The notes under the pieces: model-generated
Seen by the model: only the letters and a program-made list of their open reading frames with translations
What the model was told of the DNA's origin: nothing
The model's database searches: none
Assembly: GCF_014651075.1 (NCBI RefSeq)
Contig: NZ_BMWE01000003.1
Location: 372,001 to 436,000, forward strand
DNA: 64,000 nt
Origin: Streptomyces djakartensis
GTDB taxonomy: Bacteria > Actinomycetota > Actinomycetes > Streptomycetales > Streptomycetaceae
Direction of reading: 5' to 3'
Made by a program: the position numbers and the translations under genes
Shown: in pieces, positions 55,820 through 64,000 of the stretch
How the letters are laid out: each line of letters starts with the position of its first letter
How positions within the stretch are numbered: position 1 is the stretch's first letter

Positions 55820-55875
55820 GGAGCCGTACCGCGCCGTTTGGGATGTTGTCAGACCCAGGACCTAGTCTGTGCACC

Positions 55876-57402
55876 GTGACTTCGCCTGCATCGACGGACA
55901 GCGTTCCGCCCCAGCTCAGCGCGGGGCCGCGCCCCGCGCCGGGGCCGGCCGCCGACGAGGGCCTGGCGCGGCGCCTGCGCGCGCTCGCCTGCACCGCGCC
56001 GCTGCACGACCTCGACGCGCGCAAGGCCAACCTCGCCGGCGAGTACTCGGTGTACGGCATGGCTGAGGTCGCCCTCGCGGCCATCGACCTCGTCACCCTG
56101 AACATGGACTTCGACACGGGCGCGGACCACGACCAGATCGTCGCCCGGCTCATCCCGCGCATCGCCGCCCAGGCACCGCGGCGGCCCGCCGCCGAGCACG
56201 AGCGGGTGGCCCGCTGGGTCCTGGAGAACCTGATCAACGTCGGCAGCGTCGACCGCGGCTTCCGCGCGGTGTACGGCACCTTCGGTGCGGACGGCGCCTA
56301 TGTGCGCCGTGACTACGACTTCAAGCTGATCGAGGAGGTCCCCGGCCCGGGCGGCACGGTGTACCTGCGCACGACGGACGAGGCGGTCAACGTCCTCGTC
56401 GGCGCCCTCGACACGGACGTCACCAGCGCGCAGATCGCCGCCGAGGTCAAGCTGGAGGTGCTGATCAACCGGGGCCGGCTGGCCGACGCCCAGCTCGCCG
56501 CCGAACAGGCCCGCTACCGGACCGTGCAGTACTCGGAGACCCTGCGCAGGGCCCTCGAGGCGACCCGGCGCAACGTGCGCGCGGTGGACTGGCTCAGCAC
56601 CGTGCCCGACATGATCGCCGAGGCTCTGGAGCACGTCGCCGACCGCTACCGCCACGAGAACGCGATCCTCACCAACATCCGCAAGGCACGCGACGAGACC
56701 GAGGAGCCGGAGCACAAGCGCCGCGCCGCGGAGCTCGTCGACATCGTCAAGGACTGCATCCGCCGGCACACGCAGCTGCAGTCCCGGCTGCTCGAGGCCG
56801 GGCCGCTGTTCCGCGCCGAGCAGGACCGGCAGGCCTTCGCCACTCCGACGGCCACCTCGGGCATCGACCTGTACGGCCAACTCGTCGTCCCGGTCCTGCC
56901 GCTGCCGCTCGAGCAGGCCGTCCGTGTCACGGACGCCTTCTTCGGGCGCGGCACCGGTCTGCGCACGCCCGTGTCCGTCCGGGTCGGCGACCTCGTCGAC
57001 ATACTGCTCACGCCGCCGGTGGAGCGGGAGCACCTGGGCGCGGAGATGCCCGAGCCGGATCTCATCGCCACACCCGACGACAGCCGGTTCAGCGAGGAGC
57101 AGCTGGCGGCCGCGCAGGAGCTGCTCGACCTGCCGGCGGACGCGCCGAGACGGCTGTCCGGGCTGCTGGCCGAAGCCCGCAGGCAAGACCCCGAACTGCC
57201 GTATCTGGTGGCCCTGCTGGCGGTGCACGCCGCCAGTCCGCCGGTCGGCACGGCCTATCGCCAGGGCGAGCAGAAGCTGCTGTTCGCCGTGGACGACGGC
57301 ACCGAACTCGACGACCCGGAGTTCGGCGGAGCCGACCTCATCGTCGGCACGGCACTGCTGGACGCGGCGGGGATGGCCGCGGACCGGACGGAAGCAGCAT
57401 GA
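55876..57402 (+). CDS. Kleisin-like subunit of a MukF/MksF/JetA-type SMC complex
   Basis: A 508-residue soluble protein starting at GTG 55876 (VTSPASTDSVPPQLSAGPRP). The first 40 residues are Pro/Ala-rich. Residues about 40-200 are winged-helix-like (ARWVLENLINVGSVDRGFRA, VYLRTTDEAVNVLVGALDTD). A long helical middle follows (ADAQLAAEQARYRTVQYSET, ADRYRHENAILTNIRKARDE). This is the layout of MukF/JetA kleisins. The gene order kleisin-MukE-MukB and the sizes 508/293/1545 residues support the call. It does not resemble any enzyme. Family assignment is structural inference rather than a sequence match. Confidence 0.6.
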   Translation: MTSPASTDSVPPQLSAGPRPAPGPAADEGLARRLRALACTAPLHDLDARKANLAGEYSVYGMAEVALAAIDLVTLNMDFDTGADHDQIVARLIPRIAAQAPRRPAAEHERVARWVLENLINVGSVDRGFRAVYGTFGADGAYVRRDYDFKLIEEVPGPGGTVYLRTTDEAVNVLVGALDTDVTSAQIAAEVKLEVLINRGRLADAQLAAEQARYRTVQYSETLRRALEATRRNVRAVDWLSTVPDMIAEALEHVADRYRHENAILTNIRKARDETEEPEHKRRAAELVDIVKDCIRRHTQLQSRLLEAGPLFRAEQDRQAFATPTATSGIDLYGQLVVPVLPLPLEQAVRVTDAFFGRGTGLRTPVSVRVGDLVDILLTPPVEREHLGAEMPEPDLIATPDDSRFSEEQLAAAQELLDLPADAPRRLSGLLAEARRQDPELPYLVALLAVHAASPPVGTAYRQGEQKLLFAVDDGTELDDPEFGGADLIVGTALLDAAGMAADRTEAA

Positions 57403-57437
57403 CCGAGCACCAGTGGAACGAGGAGCCCCGACCGTGA
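57399..57437 (+). CDS. 12-codon mini-ORF bridging the first two SMC-operon genes
   Basis: ATG 57399 overlaps the stop of the kleisin-like gene (ATGA). The reading frame MTEHQWNEEPRP stops at TGA 57435-57437, which overlaps the GTG start of the next gene (GTGA). tgaccgagcac is present both at 57400-57410 and at 57435-57445, so the mini-ORF looks like a 35-bp duplication of the original start region. It may keep the ribosome moving between the two genes. Confidence 0.4.
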   Translation: MTEHQWNEEPRP

Positions 57438-58315
57438 CCGAGCACGTCGAGTGGAGCGAGCCGGAGGACCCGGCTGCGACGGCCACCGCCGCCGTCACTC
57501 CGGCCGACGCCGCCGACGCGGCGCGGCTCGTGTCCTTCGGGCTGCAGCCCAAGCTTCAGCCCGCCCGCGACCAGGAGTACGCGGACCTGCTGCGGCGCTA
57601 CCGGGAGGACCCGCCGTTCGCGCGGCTCGCCGACGCCGTGGCGACCGGCCTCGGCCTGATCGTGCTGGAGGTCTCCCCGCGCGCGGGCATGGCCGTGACC
57701 GCCGCCGAGGACTCGGTGTTCGCCGTCCGCATGGGTGACTACGCGCGTCGTACGTCCGCCGACGGCGGCGACCGGTTCCTGCACGGGCTCGCCCATCTCG
57801 CCGTCGCCGCCATGGCGTTCCCGCGCCCCGAGGACCTCGCCGACGACGGCTACATCGGCCGTGTCACGGTCAACGGCGTCGACGCCTTCGTACGCCAGGC
57901 CTGCCGCCGGCTGGAGGAGCGCGCCGCCGAACAGGGCGAGAACACCGACCCGGCGACCGAGGCGCCCGGGCTGGAGGCCGCCTGGCGGATCTGGGTGCGG
58001 CGCAGCTCGACCGGCGCCACCAAGGACGCCCGCCGGCTCGCCGGCTCGACCACCGGCATCGTCGCCAAGGCCCTCGCCTTCCTCACCGACTCCGGATTCC
58101 TCCAGCGCACCGGCGACGACAACGGCGGCACGTACCGCACCACCGCCCGCTACCAGCTCCAGGTCCGGGACATGGCCGGCAGCGCAGCCATGGCCGAGCT
58201 GCTGGAGCTCGGCGTCGTCCCGGTCACCGACGGCACGCCGACGCTGCTGCCCGCCGAGGAGAGCGACGACCTGGAGCTGGTCGCCGACGCCGGGCTGCCG
58301 TTCCACTCCTCCTGA
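57434..58315 (+). CDS. MukE/MksE/JetB-like subunit of the SMC complex
   Basis: A 293-residue soluble protein starting at GTG 57434 (VTEHVEWSEPEDPAATAT). An N-terminal acidic/Ala-rich segment is followed by helical and winged-helix-like regions: YADLLRRYREDPPFARLADA, HLAVAAMAFPRPEDLADDGY, and a C-terminal winged helix around KALAFLTDSGFLQRTGDDNG and TYRTTARYQLQVRDMAG. This tandem winged-helix composition and the central position fit the MukE/JetB (KITE) role, bridging kleisin and SMC heads. The assignment rests on context and fold features. Confidence 0.6.
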   Translation: MTEHVEWSEPEDPAATATAAVTPADAADAARLVSFGLQPKLQPARDQEYADLLRRYREDPPFARLADAVATGLGLIVLEVSPRAGMAVTAAEDSVFAVRMGDYARRTSADGGDRFLHGLAHLAVAAMAFPRPEDLADDGYIGRVTVNGVDAFVRQACRRLEERAAEQGENTDPATEAPGLEAAWRIWVRRSSTGATKDARRLAGSTTGIVAKALAFLTDSGFLQRTGDDNGGTYRTTARYQLQVRDMAGSAAMAELLELGVVPVTDGTPTLLPAEESDDLELVADAGLPFHSS

Positions 58316-58351
58316 ACATCCCTTTCTGAAGAAGGCTTACGAGAGTCCGCC

Positions 58352-61300
58352 ATGTACGAGCTGTCCCGGGTCCGCCTCTACTCCATCGGACCCGCCGGTG
58401 CGCGCTACGCCGACACCGTGCTTGACCTGCGCGGGGTGGGCGCACCCGTGCCCGACCCCGCCCCCACGCAGGCGGAGTTCTTCGAGGAGGAGCCCGTCGG
58501 GCCGCCGCGCCGGCCCGCGCCCGCCGGCGTGCTCTTCCTGGAGAACGGCGGCGGCAAGTCGGTACTGCTCAAGCTGATCTTCTCGGTGATGCTGCCGGGA
58601 CACCGCAACACGCTCGGCGGCGCCAGCTCCGGTGTGCTGCGCAAGTTCCTGCTCGCCGACGACTGCGGCCACGTGGCGCTGGAGTGGCAGCACGTGCAGA
58701 CCGGCGAGTGCGTCGTCGTCGGCAAGGTGAGCGAGTGGCGCGGACGGCAGGTCTCCAACGACCCCCGGAAGTTCGCGGAGGCCTGGTACTCCTTCCGGCC
58801 CGGTCCCGGACTCAGCCTCGACAACCTCCCCGTGGCCGAGGCCACCACCGTCCGGCCCCCGGCCGAGGGCCAGTCGGGTGCGCGCGGGCGGCGGCGCACC
58901 ATGAAGGGCTTCCGCGACGCCCTGACGGAGGCGGGCAGGACCTACCCACACCTGGAGGTGCACTGGGAGGAGATCCACGACCGCTGGATCGAGCACCTCG
59001 GCGACCTCGGCCTCGACCCCGAACTCTTCCGCTACCAGCGGGAGATGAACGCCGACGAAGGCGAGGCCGCCGGCCTCTTCGCCGTCAAGAAGGACGCCGA
59101 CTTCACCGACCTGCTGCTGCGCGCCGTCACCGACACGCGGGACACCGACGGGCTCGCCGACCTGGTCAGCGGCTTCGGCAACAAGCTGGGCCGGCGCGCC
59201 GAGCTGATCGCCGAACGGGACTTCACCGCCGGGTCCGTGGACCTGCTCGGGCGGATCGTCGAGGCCGCCGAGGCCCGCACCCGCGCGCGTGACGTCCACG
59301 CCGGGGCCGAGCGCCGTACCCGCGCCCTGGCGCGCCGGCTCTCCGCGCGCGGCGTGCGGGAGCGGGCCAGAGCCGCCGACCTGGCCCAGCGGGTCACCGC
59401 CGCCGCGTACGCCGTCACCCACGCCGAGGCGGCCCGCGAGCGCAGTGCCCTGATTGCCGCCGAACTCGCCTACCGGCACGCCTCACTGGCCCTCGCCGCG
59501 GCCGAGAAGTCCGCCGCCGCGCAGAAACGCGAACTCGCCGACGCCCGCACGCTGTACTCGGCCTGGCAGGCCGCCGAGGCCGTACTGCGGCACCGCGCCG
59601 CCGCCGACCGTGTCGCCCGGGTGTCCGCCGCGATCCAGGAGGCGGAGCGGGACGCCGCCCCGGCCCTGGCCGCCCGCTCCCAGGCCGCCGTCGACCTGGT
59701 ACGGGCCCTGCACGCCGCCGCGGAGAAGGCCGAGAGCCACGCCAACGAGGAGGAGGAGCGCTCGGCCGCCCTCCAGGAGGTCAGCGACAGCGCCTACCGC
59801 GACTCCACCGCCGCGGCCACGCAGGCGCAACGGGCCCGCAGCGAGGTCGGCCACCTGAAGCAGCGTCTCACCGAGGTCGAGCAGGAGACCGCCGAGGCGG
59901 TGCGGGCCGGCTGGCTCGACGACAGCGCGCCCGACGCCGACCCGGCCCGCGCCGCCCTCGCCGCCAGTGACGCGGAGAAGAGCGCCGTCGAGGCCTGGGA
60001 CGCCGCCCGCGAGGCGTCACGCCGGGCGACCGAGCACGCGCGGGAGGCAGCCGCCACCGAGACCCGCGCGGAGCTGACCGCGGCCCGCGCGGCGGACGCG
60101 GCCACGGCGGCGGAGCGGTCCTATCAAGCCGAGCGCCGCACCGCCGAGGCGCTGGCGGGGGAGGAGCGGCTGGCGGAACTGCTCAGCCTGACCCCCAAGG
60201 CCCGCCCCGGTATCCCCCAACCCCGCCACGGCACGGACGGCGAGCAGCCCGCCCCGCCGGACGCCGGCGAGCAGCAACTCAGCCCCGAGGAACTCGACCG
60301 CTTCGCCGACGACCTGCGCGAACTGCTCGACGACGCCGTCTCCTCCGCCGAACGGCAGCTGTTCGACCTGCGGACGGCCGCCGCCGACGACTCCCGGATC
60401 CTCGGCGCGCTCGGCGACGGCGGCCTGCTGCCGCCCGGCCCGGACGTCCTGGCCACGGTCGAGTTCCTGGGCGAGCACGGCATCCCGGCGCTGCCCGGCT
60501 GGCGTTACCTCGCACAGGCCGTCGATCCGGCCGACCACGCGCGCGTGCTGGCCGCCCGGCCCGAACTCGTCGACGGCGTGATCATCACCGACCCGGACTC
60601 CCACGCCCGGGCCCGGGAGGCGCTGGGCGACGCCGCCCTGCTGCCGAGGTCCGCCGTGGCGGTCGGCACGGCCGCCGCCCTGCTCGCCCCGGCCCCGGCC
60701 CCGGACACCGACGGCGGTGACGTGTTCCTCGTGCCGCCGAACCCGGCCATGCACGACGAGCACGCCGCGGACGAGGAGCGGCAGGCCCTGCGCGCCAGGG
60801 CGGCCGAACGCGACGAGGAGATCCGTACGCTCGCCGCCCGGCTGGGCAAGGACCGGGAGCTGGCGGCCCGGCTCGCTTCCTGGCGCACCGGCTGCCCGGC
60901 CGGCCGGCTGGCCGAGCTGGCCCAGGCGGCCCGCGCCACCCGCGAGTTCGCCGAGGAGTCCGAGGCCGAGCTGGCCGAGGCCCGCACCGCGCGGGCGGAG
61001 GCCGAGGAGGCCGCCGCCGAGGCCGCGCACGTCCGGGACGAGCGGCAGGAGGCCGCCCAGAAGGCCCGCCGCTCCGCCGACGCCCTCGCCGGGCTCGCCT
61101 TCCGGCTGCGCGAGCGGGCGGGCTGGCAGGCCAAGCTGCGCGAACTGGCCGACGAGGCGGCCGAGTCCGAGGCGGCCGCCCAGGCGTGTCTGGAGCGCGC
61201 CCGGGCCGCCGACGAGGACCGGCGCGCCGCCCAGCGCGCCGCCGACGACGCCCGCCGCACCGCCCGTGCGCTGCGCGCCGAACGCTCCGAGATCGCGGGC

Positions 61301-62989
61301 GCGCCCGATGTCGTGCCCGAGGACGACGCCCAGACCCCGAAGGCCTCCCTGCCCGCTCTGCGCGAGGCCTACCGGGCCGCCTCCCAGGTGTACGAGAAGG
61401 TCGGTGTCGGCGCGGACCTGCGGGCCGAGCAGGCCCGCGCGGAGAGCGACGAGAGCGCGGCGCGCGCGGACCTGGACCGGCTGAGCAACAAGGTCCGCAC
61501 ACGCGCGGAGCAGCTCCTCGAATCCCCCGACGGCTCCGACGGGCCCAGCCGCCAGGCCGCCGCCGCCCGCGCCGAGGAGCTGGTGCAGCTCCTGGAAACC
61601 CGTATGTCGAGCGCGAGCGAGCAGCTCGGGCGGCTGCGCGGCGAGGCCGAACGGCACGCACCCGAGGACGGTGACGCGCACACCGAACTCCCCGAGGACC
61701 GCCGGCCGCGCGACGCGGAGCACGCGCAGGCCCTGCTGCGCACGGCCACGGCCGAACTCGCCTCCCACACCGAGGCGCTGACCCAGGCACGCGAGGCGCA
61801 CGCCGAACTCCTCGACGCACACCGCGCCGCCGAGGACGCGGCGAGCGGGTTCGACGAGATCGCCGCGATGCTCCGCGACCTGCTGCGCGAGCACACCACG
61901 GACGAGGAGCAGGAGGAGACCGAGCCGTACCCCGGCAGCCCCGAGGAGGCCCGGCAGTCGGCCGCCGAGGCCCGCCGCTCGCTGCGCGGCTGCGCCGCCG
62001 ACCTGTCCGCCGCCGAGGCCGCCGTCCGCGAGGCCTGCGACATCCTCGTCCGGCACGCCAACTCCACGCGCTACGAGCAGGTCCGCACGCCGGCCCGCCA
62101 GCAGATCCGCGAACTGCCCGCCTCCGCGCTGCCCGAGCACGCCCAGAAGTGGGCGGACGCCTTCGCGCCCCGGCTCCGCGTCCTGACGGACGAGCTGGAG
62201 CAACTGGAGCGAAACCGCGACTCGATCGTGGACCGCCTGCGCGGCCTGGTCGAGTCCTCACTGGCCACCCTGCGCTCCGCCCAGCGGCTCTCCCGGCTGC
62301 CGGAGGGCCTCGGCGAATGGTCGGGGCAGGAGTTCCTGCGCATCCGCTTCGAGGAGCCCGACCAGGCCACGCTCACCGAACGGCTCGGCGAGGTCATCGA
62401 CGAGGCGACCCGCGCCGCCGTCAAGAAGAACTCCGACCTGCGCCGCGACGGCATGTCCCTGCTGCTGCGGGGCGTCGCCGCCGCGCTGCAGCCCAGGGGC
62501 GTCGCCGTGGAGATCCTCAAGCCCGACGCGGTGCTGCGCGCCGAGCGTGTCCCCGTCGGGCAGATGGGCGACGTGTTCTCCGGCGGCCAGCTGCTCACCG
62601 CGGCGATCGCGCTGTACTGCACGATGGCCGCGCTGCGGAGCAACGACCGGGGCCGCGACAAGCACCGGCACGCCGGCACGCTGTTCCTCGACAACCCGAT
62701 CGGCCGCGCCAACGCCACCTACCTGCTGGAACTCCAGCGGGCGGTGTCCGACGCCCTGGGCGTCCAGCTCCTGTACACCACCGGCCTGTTCGACACCACC
62801 GCGCTGGCCGAGTTCCCCCTCGTCATCCGCATGCGCAACGACGCCGACCTGCGGGCCGGCCTCAAGTACATCAGCGTCGAGGAACATCTCCGACCGGGCC
62901 TGCCCCAGCAGCCCCAGGCGGGAGAGGCGGTGCACAGCGAGATCACGGCGACCAGGATGTTCAGACGTCCCTCGCCATCGGCGTCCTGA
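58352..62989 (+). CDS. MukB/MksB/JetC-like SMC ATPase
   Basis: A 1545-residue SMC-type ATPase starting at ATG 58352 (MYELSRVRLYSIGPAG). Walker A is NGGGKS at residues 65-70 (FLENGGGKSVLLKL). Two long Ala/Arg/Glu-rich coiled coils (about 290-640 and 810-1340) flank a globular hinge-like region (about 680-800; EFLGEHGIPALPGWRYLAQA, PELVDGVIITDPDSH). The ABC signature is FSGGQ at 1409-1413 and the Walker B region is LFLDNPIG around D1447. The combination of N-terminal NGGGKS and C-terminal SGGQ is MukB-like. Length is close to MukB (about 1480) and longer than typical JetC. The gene starts 36 nt after the MukE-like gene. Confidence 0.75.
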   Translation: MYELSRVRLYSIGPAGARYADTVLDLRGVGAPVPDPAPTQAEFFEEEPVGPPRRPAPAGVLFLENGGGKSVLLKLIFSVMLPGHRNTLGGASSGVLRKFLLADDCGHVALEWQHVQTGECVVVGKVSEWRGRQVSNDPRKFAEAWYSFRPGPGLSLDNLPVAEATTVRPPAEGQSGARGRRRTMKGFRDALTEAGRTYPHLEVHWEEIHDRWIEHLGDLGLDPELFRYQREMNADEGEAAGLFAVKKDADFTDLLLRAVTDTRDTDGLADLVSGFGNKLGRRAELIAERDFTAGSVDLLGRIVEAAEARTRARDVHAGAERRTRALARRLSARGVRERARAADLAQRVTAAAYAVTHAEAARERSALIAAELAYRHASLALAAAEKSAAAQKRELADARTLYSAWQAAEAVLRHRAAADRVARVSAAIQEAERDAAPALAARSQAAVDLVRALHAAAEKAESHANEEEERSAALQEVSDSAYRDSTAAATQAQRARSEVGHLKQRLTEVEQETAEAVRAGWLDDSAPDADPARAALAASDAEKSAVEAWDAAREASRRATEHAREAAATETRAELTAARAADAATAAERSYQAERRTAEALAGEERLAELLSLTPKARPGIPQPRHGTDGEQPAPPDAGEQQLSPEELDRFADDLRELLDDAVSSAERQLFDLRTAAADDSRILGALGDGGLLPPGPDVLATVEFLGEHGIPALPGWRYLAQAVDPADHARVLAARPELVDGVIITDPDSHARAREALGDAALLPRSAVAVGTAAALLAPAPAPDTDGGDVFLVPPNPAMHDEHAADEERQALRARAAERDEEIRTLAARLGKDRELAARLASWRTGCPAGRLAELAQAARATREFAEESEAELAEARTARAEAEEAAAEAAHVRDERQEAAQKARRSADALAGLAFRLRERAGWQAKLRELADEAAESEAAAQACLERARAADEDRRAAQRAADDARRTARALRAERSEIAGAPDVVPEDDAQTPKASLPALREAYRAASQVYEKVGVGADLRAEQARAESDESAARADLDRLSNKVRTRAEQLLESPDGSDGPSRQAAAARAEELVQLLETRMSSASEQLGRLRGEAERHAPEDGDAHTELPEDRRPRDAEHAQALLRTATAELASHTEALTQAREAHAELLDAHRAAEDAASGFDEIAAMLRDLLREHTTDEEQEETEPYPGSPEEARQSAAEARRSLRGCAADLSAAEAAVREACDILVRHANSTRYEQVRTPARQQIRELPASALPEHAQKWADAFAPRLRVLTDELEQLERNRDSIVDRLRGLVESSLATLRSAQRLSRLPEGLGEWSGQEFLRIRFEEPDQATLTERLGEVIDEATRAAVKKNSDLRRDGMSLLLRGVAAALQPRGVAVEILKPDAVLRAERVPVGQMGDVFSGGQLLTAAIALYCTMAALRSNDRGRDKHRHAGTLFLDNPIGRANATYLLELQRAVSDALGVQLLYTTGLFDTTALAEFPLVIRMRNDADLRAGLKYISVEEHLRPGLPQQPQAGEAVHSEITATRMFRRPSPSAS

Positions 62990-63018: not shown

Positions 63019-63480
63019 TCAAGGGTGGGACAGCTGCCCGGCACCGCCCCGCCGGCGTATCCGCTCCCGCGCCCGTTCGTCGGCGCGCGCCCGCCGTCGG
63101 GCACGGCGCCGCTCGCGCCGCAGGGCCCGGGCCGTGCTGCTCGGCACGGACACCACGCCATGGCGCTGGTTCCACACCTGGCGCGTCACCCATACGTCGA
63201 GCACGCCCCACGTCGCCACGATGGTGCTGACCACGCTGCTGATCACCATGGGCAGGGCCAGCCAGGAGCCGGCCATCGTGCACAGGAAGGCCGTCATGGC
63301 CTGAAGCAGCGTCAGGGCGATGACGAGGACCGCCCGCACGGCTGCCGTCCTCACCGGATCCGGCAGCCTGCGCCGCCGCGCGGGCTCCTCCACCCACAGG
63401 GGCCGGTTGGACCGCTGCTCGCGCGGGTCTCGCGCCTTTCCGCCCGCCCCGGGCGCCTCGTACCGCTCCGCCGTGCCCAT
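63019..63480 (-). CDS. Small membrane protein of unknown function
   Basis: A 153-residue protein from the complement of 63478-63480 (MGTAERYEAPGAGGKARDPR); an in-frame start at 63498 would add six residues. A basic, polar N-terminal region precedes two hydrophobic helices (VRAVLVIALTLLQAMTAFLC and LALPMVISSVVSTIVATWGV). The tail is extremely Arg-rich (RALRRERRRARRRARADERA). It is convergent with the SMC ATPase gene across 29 bp. No homologue was recognised. Confidence 0.7.
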   Translation of the reverse strand: MGTAERYEAPGAGGKARDPREQRSNRPLWVEEPARRRRLPDPVRTAAVRAVLVIALTLLQAMTAFLCTMAGSWLALPMVISSVVSTIVATWGVLDVWVTRQVWNQRHGVVSVPSSTARALRRERRRARRRARADERARERIRRRGGAGQLSHP

Positions 63481-63903
63481 CACCCTGTCACTCCCCACCG
63501 CCAGCAGACCGCTCCCGCTCGCGTCCGAAGACCCGCGCTCCCCAGTGGCTGCCCTGCTTGCGCTGTATTACGCCGCCCAAGTGCGGGATGCGGCGCCTGT
63601 GGCCGATTCCGCCCCCATTTCCTACGGGGAAGGACGAGCGACCCACCACGAAGATTCCCAGAGGACGAAAAATTTCAGCCAACCGCCCAAGTGAGTCCCG
63701 GAGGTCGGCCGATGCGTCCGCCATCGGTTTCGGGGAGACAACTCCCGCAATGCCCGGACAACTCGACATGCCCGGCGAGTGGCGCGGAAGTTCAGGCTCC
63801 GGACCGGTCTTCGAGTTCCCTGTTCGTCGGTAGTAGGCTCGCGGCGTTTGTTGACGCACATGTGTACCCCCGGTAGGCCGGGGGGCCCGAGCTGGGGGAG
63901 GCC
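63481..63903. other. 423-bp gene-free, relatively AT-rich region before the sensor kinase
   Basis: The region between the divergent membrane-protein and sensor-kinase genes includes A/T-richer stretches (for example gaaaaatttcagcc at 63668-63681). No frame in it has Streptomyces codon bias, so the short ORFs there are not called. A promoter-like pair lies at 63851-63879. Confidence 0.5.
63851..63879 (+). promoter_or_regulatory. Putative promoter of the CvnA-type sensor kinase
   Basis: TTGACG (63851-63856), a 17-bp spacer and TAGGCC (63874-63879) lie 25 nt before the ATG at 63904. The ribosome-binding site ggggag is just upstream of the start. Confidence 0.5.
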
Positions 63904-64000
63904 ATGCGCTTTCGCGGGAAGTCCATCCGCCGGAAGATCGTGGCGCTGCTCCTCGTGCCGCTGGTGTCCCTGACCGCGATCTGGTCCTTCGCCACGGTGC
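63904..64000 (+). CDS. CvnA-type nitrate/nitrite-sensing-like histidine kinase, N-terminal fragment
   Basis: Only 32 codons fall within the window (MRFRGKSIRRKIVALLLVPL and on into a first membrane helix). The basic start followed by a strongly hydrophobic segment is the characteristic N-terminus of conservon sensor kinases (CvnA), which carry an extracytoplasmic NIT domain and precede cvnB, cvnC and cvnD. If so, the rest of a conservon should lie immediately beyond position 64000. Confidence 0.65.
   Translation, partial: MRFRGKSIRRKIVALLLVPLVSLTAIWSFATV

Follow-up and report, generated by a model that had tools for sequence, protein, structure and literature searches.

Several SMC (structural maintenance of chromosomes) complexes related to MukBEF have been described in bacteria. 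MukBEF and the JetABC complex of type I Wadjet are ATP-driven dimer-of-dimers motors held to extrude DNA loops, JetD being the cutting effector of Wadjet which, in the total-extrusion model, cleaves small circles upon their complete extrusion (PMC10586767). In Pseudomonas aeruginosa, MksBEF organises the chromosome and is thought to have lost JetD (PMC10586767), and the MksBEFG complex of Corynebacterium glutamicum has been classed as type I (PMC10123090). Here, we have analyzed a window of 64,000 nucleotides from Streptomyces djakartensis (G000:C3:372001-436000, i.e., contig NZ_BMWE01000003.1 of assembly GCF_014651075.1, a 7.67-Mb draft genome in 109 contigs with a listed completeness of 100%) containing a three-gene operon, jetABC, at positions 55876-62989. 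Both the identity of its products as a Wadjet type III-type motor and the absence of the nuclease are well supported, and we discuss its possible function as a second condensin.

Identity of the complex and absence of JetD

By open reading frame (ORF) reading, the operon is intact, with its three genes on one strand and separated by gaps of 31 and 36 bp (Table 1). A first-pass annotation, based on the nucleotide sequence, had predicted a MukFEB/JetABC-like complex made of three coupled ORFs of 508, 293 and 1545 residues, the last one being an SMC ATPase with the motifs NGGGKS, FSGGQ and LFLDNPIG, and both the ORFs and the motifs were found as described. As neither Pfam nor NCBIfam provided a family name for any of the three proteins, and sequence searches of the PDB chains returned nothing, their identification required PADLOC profiles and a comparison of folds. 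JetA matches the PADLOC profile JetA3 (PDLC00567, 628 bits, E=3e-189) and JetC the profile JetC3 (PDLC00588, 1426 bits, E=0), with scores far above chance; PDLC00589 and PDLC00579 also match JetC over its full length. Regarding JetB, none of the profiles of Pfam, NCBIfam and PADLOC matched. A jetB gene is conserved in the middle position at the loci examined, with 30-86% identity among relatives, and is homologous to the jetB of JetABCD loci.

AlphaFold2 models of moderate confidence were built from alignments of related loci for JetA (predicted local distance difference test, pLDDT, 76.5; predicted template modelling score, pTM, 0.56) and JetB (pLDDT 73, pTM 0.69). In the PDB, the best matches of the JetA model are the MukF chains 9gm7_C (E=1.2e-4) and 7nz2_C1, while 11 of the best 12 matches of the JetB model are MukE chains (3rpu, 3euh, 7nyy, 7nyw, 9gmb, 7v8p), a Wadjet JetB (8as8_C) being also among these 12 and another one (8dk1_F) ranking 14th. 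The template modelling (TM) scores are modest, about 0.2-0.5, as expected of flexible multi-domain chains, and the weight therefore rests on the agreement among matches. Structure prediction supports JetA as a kleisin with a MukF-like fold and JetB as a KITE (kleisin-interacting tandem winged-helix element) protein with a MukE-like fold, in agreement with the kleisin-like and winged-helix proteins initially proposed. With the PADLOC matches, these folds substantiate the predicted MukFEB/JetABC-like complex, whose closest relative is supported to be Wadjet type III and not MukBEF itself. The aspartate-asparagine pair of Walker B was also considered as an ATPase lesion indicative of decay; this was rejected, since it is identical in the nuclease-bearing relatives and is hence a family trait.

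Regarding the nuclease, neither JetD_C (Pfam PF09983) nor JetD3 (PADLOC PDLC00594) has a match in the whole 7.67 Mb of the source genome. PF09983 scores type III JetD weakly (25-31 bits), so that its absence alone is not conclusive, and the JetD3 model and a home-made JetD hidden Markov model (HMM) were therefore used. With the JetD3 model and the HMM, the latter run over all ORFs of the loci, no JetD was found at the Streptomycetaceae loci of the same type as the window operon (hereafter, core loci). The gene adjoining the operon is a small convergent one (Table 1), and the absence of an adjacent JetD, as first noted, is thus borne out. Among 150 Streptomyces genomes, JetD3 exceeds 100 bits in 11 and a PF09983 protein is present in 18 (JetD3 >100 bits in 23 of the 249 Streptomycetaceae genomes), and about 85% of the operon-bearing Streptomyces have a match to neither model. 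All 11 JetD3-bearing Streptomyces possess a second, divergent jetA, with 32-53% identity in the cases read (Fisher exact p=5e-15); the possibility that a JetD homologue is regularly encoded elsewhere in the same genomes is hence not what was observed, JetD3 being tied to a second jetABC. At the Streptomyces JetABCD paralogue loci fetched (L053-L060), jetD is the next gene 3' of jetC in 8/8 cases, versus 0/14 with a jetD within the stretch read for Streptomyces core loci fetched in the same way, and about 31 further Streptomycetaceae loci (named, from GTDB genomes) follow the same JetD-less core pattern. Core JetA shares about 30-53% identity with the JetD-bearing paralogues of Streptomyces and 55-64% with those of other actinobacteria. 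In Streptomyces, the JetABCD paralogue is a sporadic, true Wadjet. In three assemblies (G048, G128 and G089, contig C1), JetD-type nuclease genes are located within about 16-35 kb of both chromosome ends, apparently in terminal inverted repeats and hence in two copies.

Conservation, evolution and setting of the operon

A jetA gene, usually single-copy, was found in 147 of the 150 Streptomyces genomes, the three others being incomplete and/or highly fragmented (78% complete; 82% complete; 98% complete in 1,140 contigs). At the family level, jetA is present in 246/249 genomes and in all 17 genera, with genus g123 represented by a weak, paralogue-like match. In a 5.2-Mb genome of this genus (G446), the sole match is a divergent, JetD3-associated jetA, and the core operon was possibly lost. 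Between the window and core relatives, the ratios of nonsynonymous to synonymous substitutions (dN/dS, Nei-Gojobori NG86 method) are 0.05-0.15 for jetA, 0.10-0.33 for jetB and 0.10-0.29 for jetC: all three genes are under purifying selection. The jetA of Streptomyces massasporeus (L136) is 97% identical to the one of the window, which identifies the source as a Streptomyces. The three JetC ATPase motifs lie within one ORF at 36 of the 46 core loci, most of the other 10 being cut by contig ends or without jetC in the record. At two loci (L049 and L167), jetC is broken into shorter ORFs, possibly by assembly frameshifts or by rare gene decay. No core-type jetA was found in 50,697 phage records or in 72,556 plasmid records, the latter containing four divergent matches, none above 53% identity.

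Outside the family, JetD-less JetABC is encountered in family f18, in Cellulomonas timonensis and in Pseudonocardiaceae, among them Amycolatopsis, Prauserella and Pseudonocardia. The JetD-bearing forms comprise those of Actinoallomurus, a Streptosporangiaceae and a Micromonosporaceae metagenome-assembled genome, Amycolatopsis palatopharyngis and the Streptomyces paralogues. In a tree of the concatenated JetABC proteins, the Streptomycetaceae core forms one clade, wholly JetD-less, with a Shimodaira-Hasegawa-like approximate likelihood ratio test (SH-aLRT) support of 100. The JetD state changes about 3-4 times on this tree, the marked branches forcing at least four changes if one counts locus L075, whose state is uncertain as its contig stops inside jetC. 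In the JetD-bearing set, the JetD and JetABC trees agree in outline, as expected if the two usually travel together. At deep nodes, the inferred polarity favours loss of JetD, since the deeper type III branches and the other Wadjets carry it. A gain is documented in Amycolatopsis rifamycinica (L115:16700-17783), in which jetD is followed by a leftover jetC 3' end (TDSAEDEQPA-stop) matching the genuine end of jetC in A. vastitatis, A. vancoresmycina, A. pretoriensis and A. bullii. Because this displaced tail remains after jetD, jetD was inserted into the jetC end of a JetD-less operon, a recent event. The tree position of this JetD agrees with that of its JetABC and an ancestral remnant was considered, but the jetC tail after jetD rules it out. 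JetD is thus a plug-in module that has been both lost and gained, with at least one regain among the relatives of the Streptomyces complex. In family f18 (L061-L071, L074, L076-L078), a long low-complexity insert rich in Ala, Gly and Pro stands just before the JetC Walker A motif, with JetC ORFs of up to about 1,650-1,970 aa.

The jetA gene of the window is preceded by a promoter-like block (Table 1). A TGTC-N12-TANNNT block stands upstream of jetA in 32/32 core Streptomycetaceae loci, mostly at exactly -29 from the start, and its conserved form across Streptomyces is TGTC-N12-TA(G/A)TCT with an upstream GTTTSG; beyond it, the upstream sequences are unrelated among core loci. This arrangement suggests an operon-specific, leaderless jetA transcript. 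A longer jetA starting at ATG 55843 (519 aa) is possible, yet the GTG at 55876 is favored as the probable start because the genus-wide block ends 7 bp before it. The upstream neighbours (FadR-type GntR, MFS and D-glutamate cyclase genes) and the downstream ones (the small convergent gene followed by a histidine kinase) are common to many, but not all, species, and because they vary, none is a likely obligate partner. The idea that the downstream histidine kinase marks the cvn9 region of S. coelicolor (SCO1630), with jetC close to SCO1631-1633, was dropped, as SCO1631 is named in the literature as HelY and SCO1633 as a Tat-secreted protein.

Table 1. Features of the jetABC locus (window positions)
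Feature	Position	Strand	Remarks
Promoter-like block TGTC-N12-TAGTCT	55847..55868	+	7 bp before jetA GTG
jetA-like kleisin gene	55876..57402	+	GTG start, 508 aa
jetB-like KITE (double winged-helix) gene	57434..58315	+	GTG start, 293 aa
jetC-like SMC ATPase gene	58352..62989	+	ATG start, 1545 aa
Walker A NGGGKS	58544..58561	+	JetC residues 65-70; also kept in JetD-bearing paralogues
ABC signature FSGGQ	62576..62590	+	JetC residues 1409-1413; conserved
Walker B LFLDNPIG	62681..62704	+	JetC residues 1444-1451; DNP motif also in JetD-bearing paralogues
Next gene 3' of the operon	63019-63498	-	Small protein without Pfam match; convergent; usually syntenic
Large histidine-kinase-like membrane protein, start (MRFRGKSIRRKIVALLLVPLVSLTAIW...)	63904-64000		Usually syntenic with the operon

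A possible second condensin and alternative functions

The source genome separately encodes a canonical Smc (G000:C22:47432-51034, 935 bits); of the initial statement that SMC-ScpAB is already present, the Smc part stands, the search having covered Smc only. Our analysis leans, by a modest measure, toward a complete Wadjet type III motor (JetA kleisin, JetB KITE, JetC SMC), free of its nuclease, which would act as a second condensin, since without JetD nothing would carry out the cutting of a small circle at the total-extrusion step. An ATP-driven JetABC dimer-of-dimers would load on the host chromosome and extrude loops, like MukBEF and P. aeruginosa MksBEF, and might act beside ParB-loaded Smc-ScpAB, aiding compaction or segregation in multigenomic hyphae. 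The universality of the operon and the constraint on its genes point to such a housekeeping chromosomal role over an optional defence function. Moreover, in S. venezuelae, deletion of smc abolishes arm alignment and raises contacts below 200 kb, and the phenotype of the smc hupS double mutant was described as "rather mild" (PMC8410768), which leaves room for another loop extruder. Several observations weigh against a chromosomal role. In the Streptomyces core, the residues at least 90% conserved in JetD-bearing complexes are kept at 94/99, 46/49 and 154/169 columns, and a search for residues lost along with JetD showed no obvious interface; with no decayed JetD interface visible, the complex may therefore continue to work for an effector whose gene lies elsewhere. 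In assemblies consisting of one contig, the operon is usually located 4-18% from an end (two at 34-38%), away from the presumed central origin, and the publications on Streptomyces chromosome conformation capture (Hi-C) had no need of a second extruder. A more encompassing proposal, to which we give slightly less than an even chance, is that the Streptomycetaceae derived a second family-wide condensin from Wadjet type III by shedding the nuclease, independently of Pseudomonas MksBEF; it would fold the chromosome beside Smc-ScpAB and partly explain why smc deletion is mild, the nuclease being detachable, with several lineages having lost it and at least one re-insertion.

The close kinship with Wadjet type III and the fact that nearly all positions conserved among JetD-bearing complexes have been kept are also what one would expect if JetABC was still directed against plasmids or mobile elements without JetD, by loading on small circles and then compacting, silencing or mis-segregating them, as proposed for Smc5/6, or by passing them to an unrelated host nuclease. 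The A. rifamycinica operon, JetD-less and able to receive jetD, further implies that the motor may stay defence-ready. However, the operon is universal, vertically inherited and strongly constrained, unlike the sporadic JetABCD paralogues, and its downstream gene is convergent, so that a conserved effector co-transcribed with the operon is not apparent on this flank; we consider this activity unlikely, although it deserves attention. We regard as less probable still a specialised function in DNA maintenance (repair, replication restart, linear chromosome ends or sporulation) rather than in general folding. Most named JetABC carriers do belong to mycelial genera, and in most assemblies of a single contig the operon is closer to an end than to the middle, but core loci show no consistent linkage to a repair or sporulation gene. 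The occurrence of the complex in Amycolatopsis, Pseudonocardia and Cellulomonas (C. timonensis) makes it less likely that its role is restricted to linear chromosomes or to sporulation in Streptomyces; C. timonensis is unicellular, and the chromosomes of Amycolatopsis and Pseudonocardia are generally taken as circular.

The occurrence of JetD3 and PF09983 proteins in a minority of Streptomyces would allow a split Wadjet, in which the core JetABC borrows JetD in trans from a Wadjet located at another site of the genome. This is largely refuted by the many operon-bearing genomes, including the source genome, devoid of both models, and by the fact that JetD3 genomes have their own divergent jetA, with a full jetABC directly beside jetD at the loci read, which makes such borrowing very improbable. 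As for a decaying Wadjet remnant, drifting after the loss of a toxic nuclease, a JetD-bearing ancestor is plausible, but the dN/dS values well below 1 in all three genes, the JetC motifs held in one ORF at most core loci and the presence of the operon in 16-17 genera refute it, and we give it practically no credence.

Comparison with known systems

The components of the operon are of a known kind, and a family-wide nuclease-free type III complex appears to be new to the literature searched. A survey of actinobacterial defence systems reported Wadjet in 42% of genomes, with enrichment toward Streptomyces chromosome ends, and its text mentions neither JetD nor JetA (PMC10482375). No mention of a MukB/Wadjet-type complex in Streptomyces was found in four chromosome papers (PMC8410768, PMC13121528, PMC12511625, PMC8410849), and no description of a family-wide nuclease-free type III complex in the literature outside most subscription papers and bioRxiv. 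Chromosome folding in Streptomyces has so far been studied with ParB, Smc-ScpAB and HupS alone, and a second SMC motor, conserved in almost all species, would allow one to test directly why smc mutants are mild. Moreover, JetD-less and JetD-bearing JetABC within one genus, together with the recent jetD insertion in one Amycolatopsis species, would offer natural replicates for the transition from a defence SMC to a chromosome organiser.

With Wadjet type III (JetABCD), the operon shares the JetA3 and JetC3 profiles, the gene order A-B-C and the ATPase motifs. In contrast, the Streptomyces core is devoid of the JetD TOPRIM nuclease needed for plasmid restriction, and is universal, usually single-copy and chromosomal whereas JetABCD is sporadic; as a targeted search did not reveal the nuclease that defines Wadjet, we do not class the operon as such. 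JetC belongs to the same SMC superfamily as the Smc of Streptomyces Smc-ScpAB, is encoded by a separate gene and matches none of the NCBIfam SMC models, including TIGR02168. The MksBEFG of C. glutamicum and mycobacteria is likewise an actinobacterial Muk-like complex standing beside Smc, but it includes the nuclease MksG/JetD and is directed at plasmids (PMC10123090). The MukBEF of Escherichia coli is, like the Streptomyces complex, nuclease-free and similar in the modelled kleisin and KITE folds (JetA to MukF, JetB to MukE); no sequence similarity to it was found (Pfam, NCBIfam, PDB chains), and Streptomyces keeps Smc instead of replacing it. Finally, P. aeruginosa MksBEF is also a JetABC-type complex without nuclease, probably from another Wadjet lineage, and the chromosomal role shown there is the one that we infer for the Streptomyces operon, which coexists with Smc. 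That nearly all Streptomyces species carry a Wadjet motor without its cutter besides their normal SMC suggests a defence machine turned into a second, hitherto overlooked chromosome organiser.

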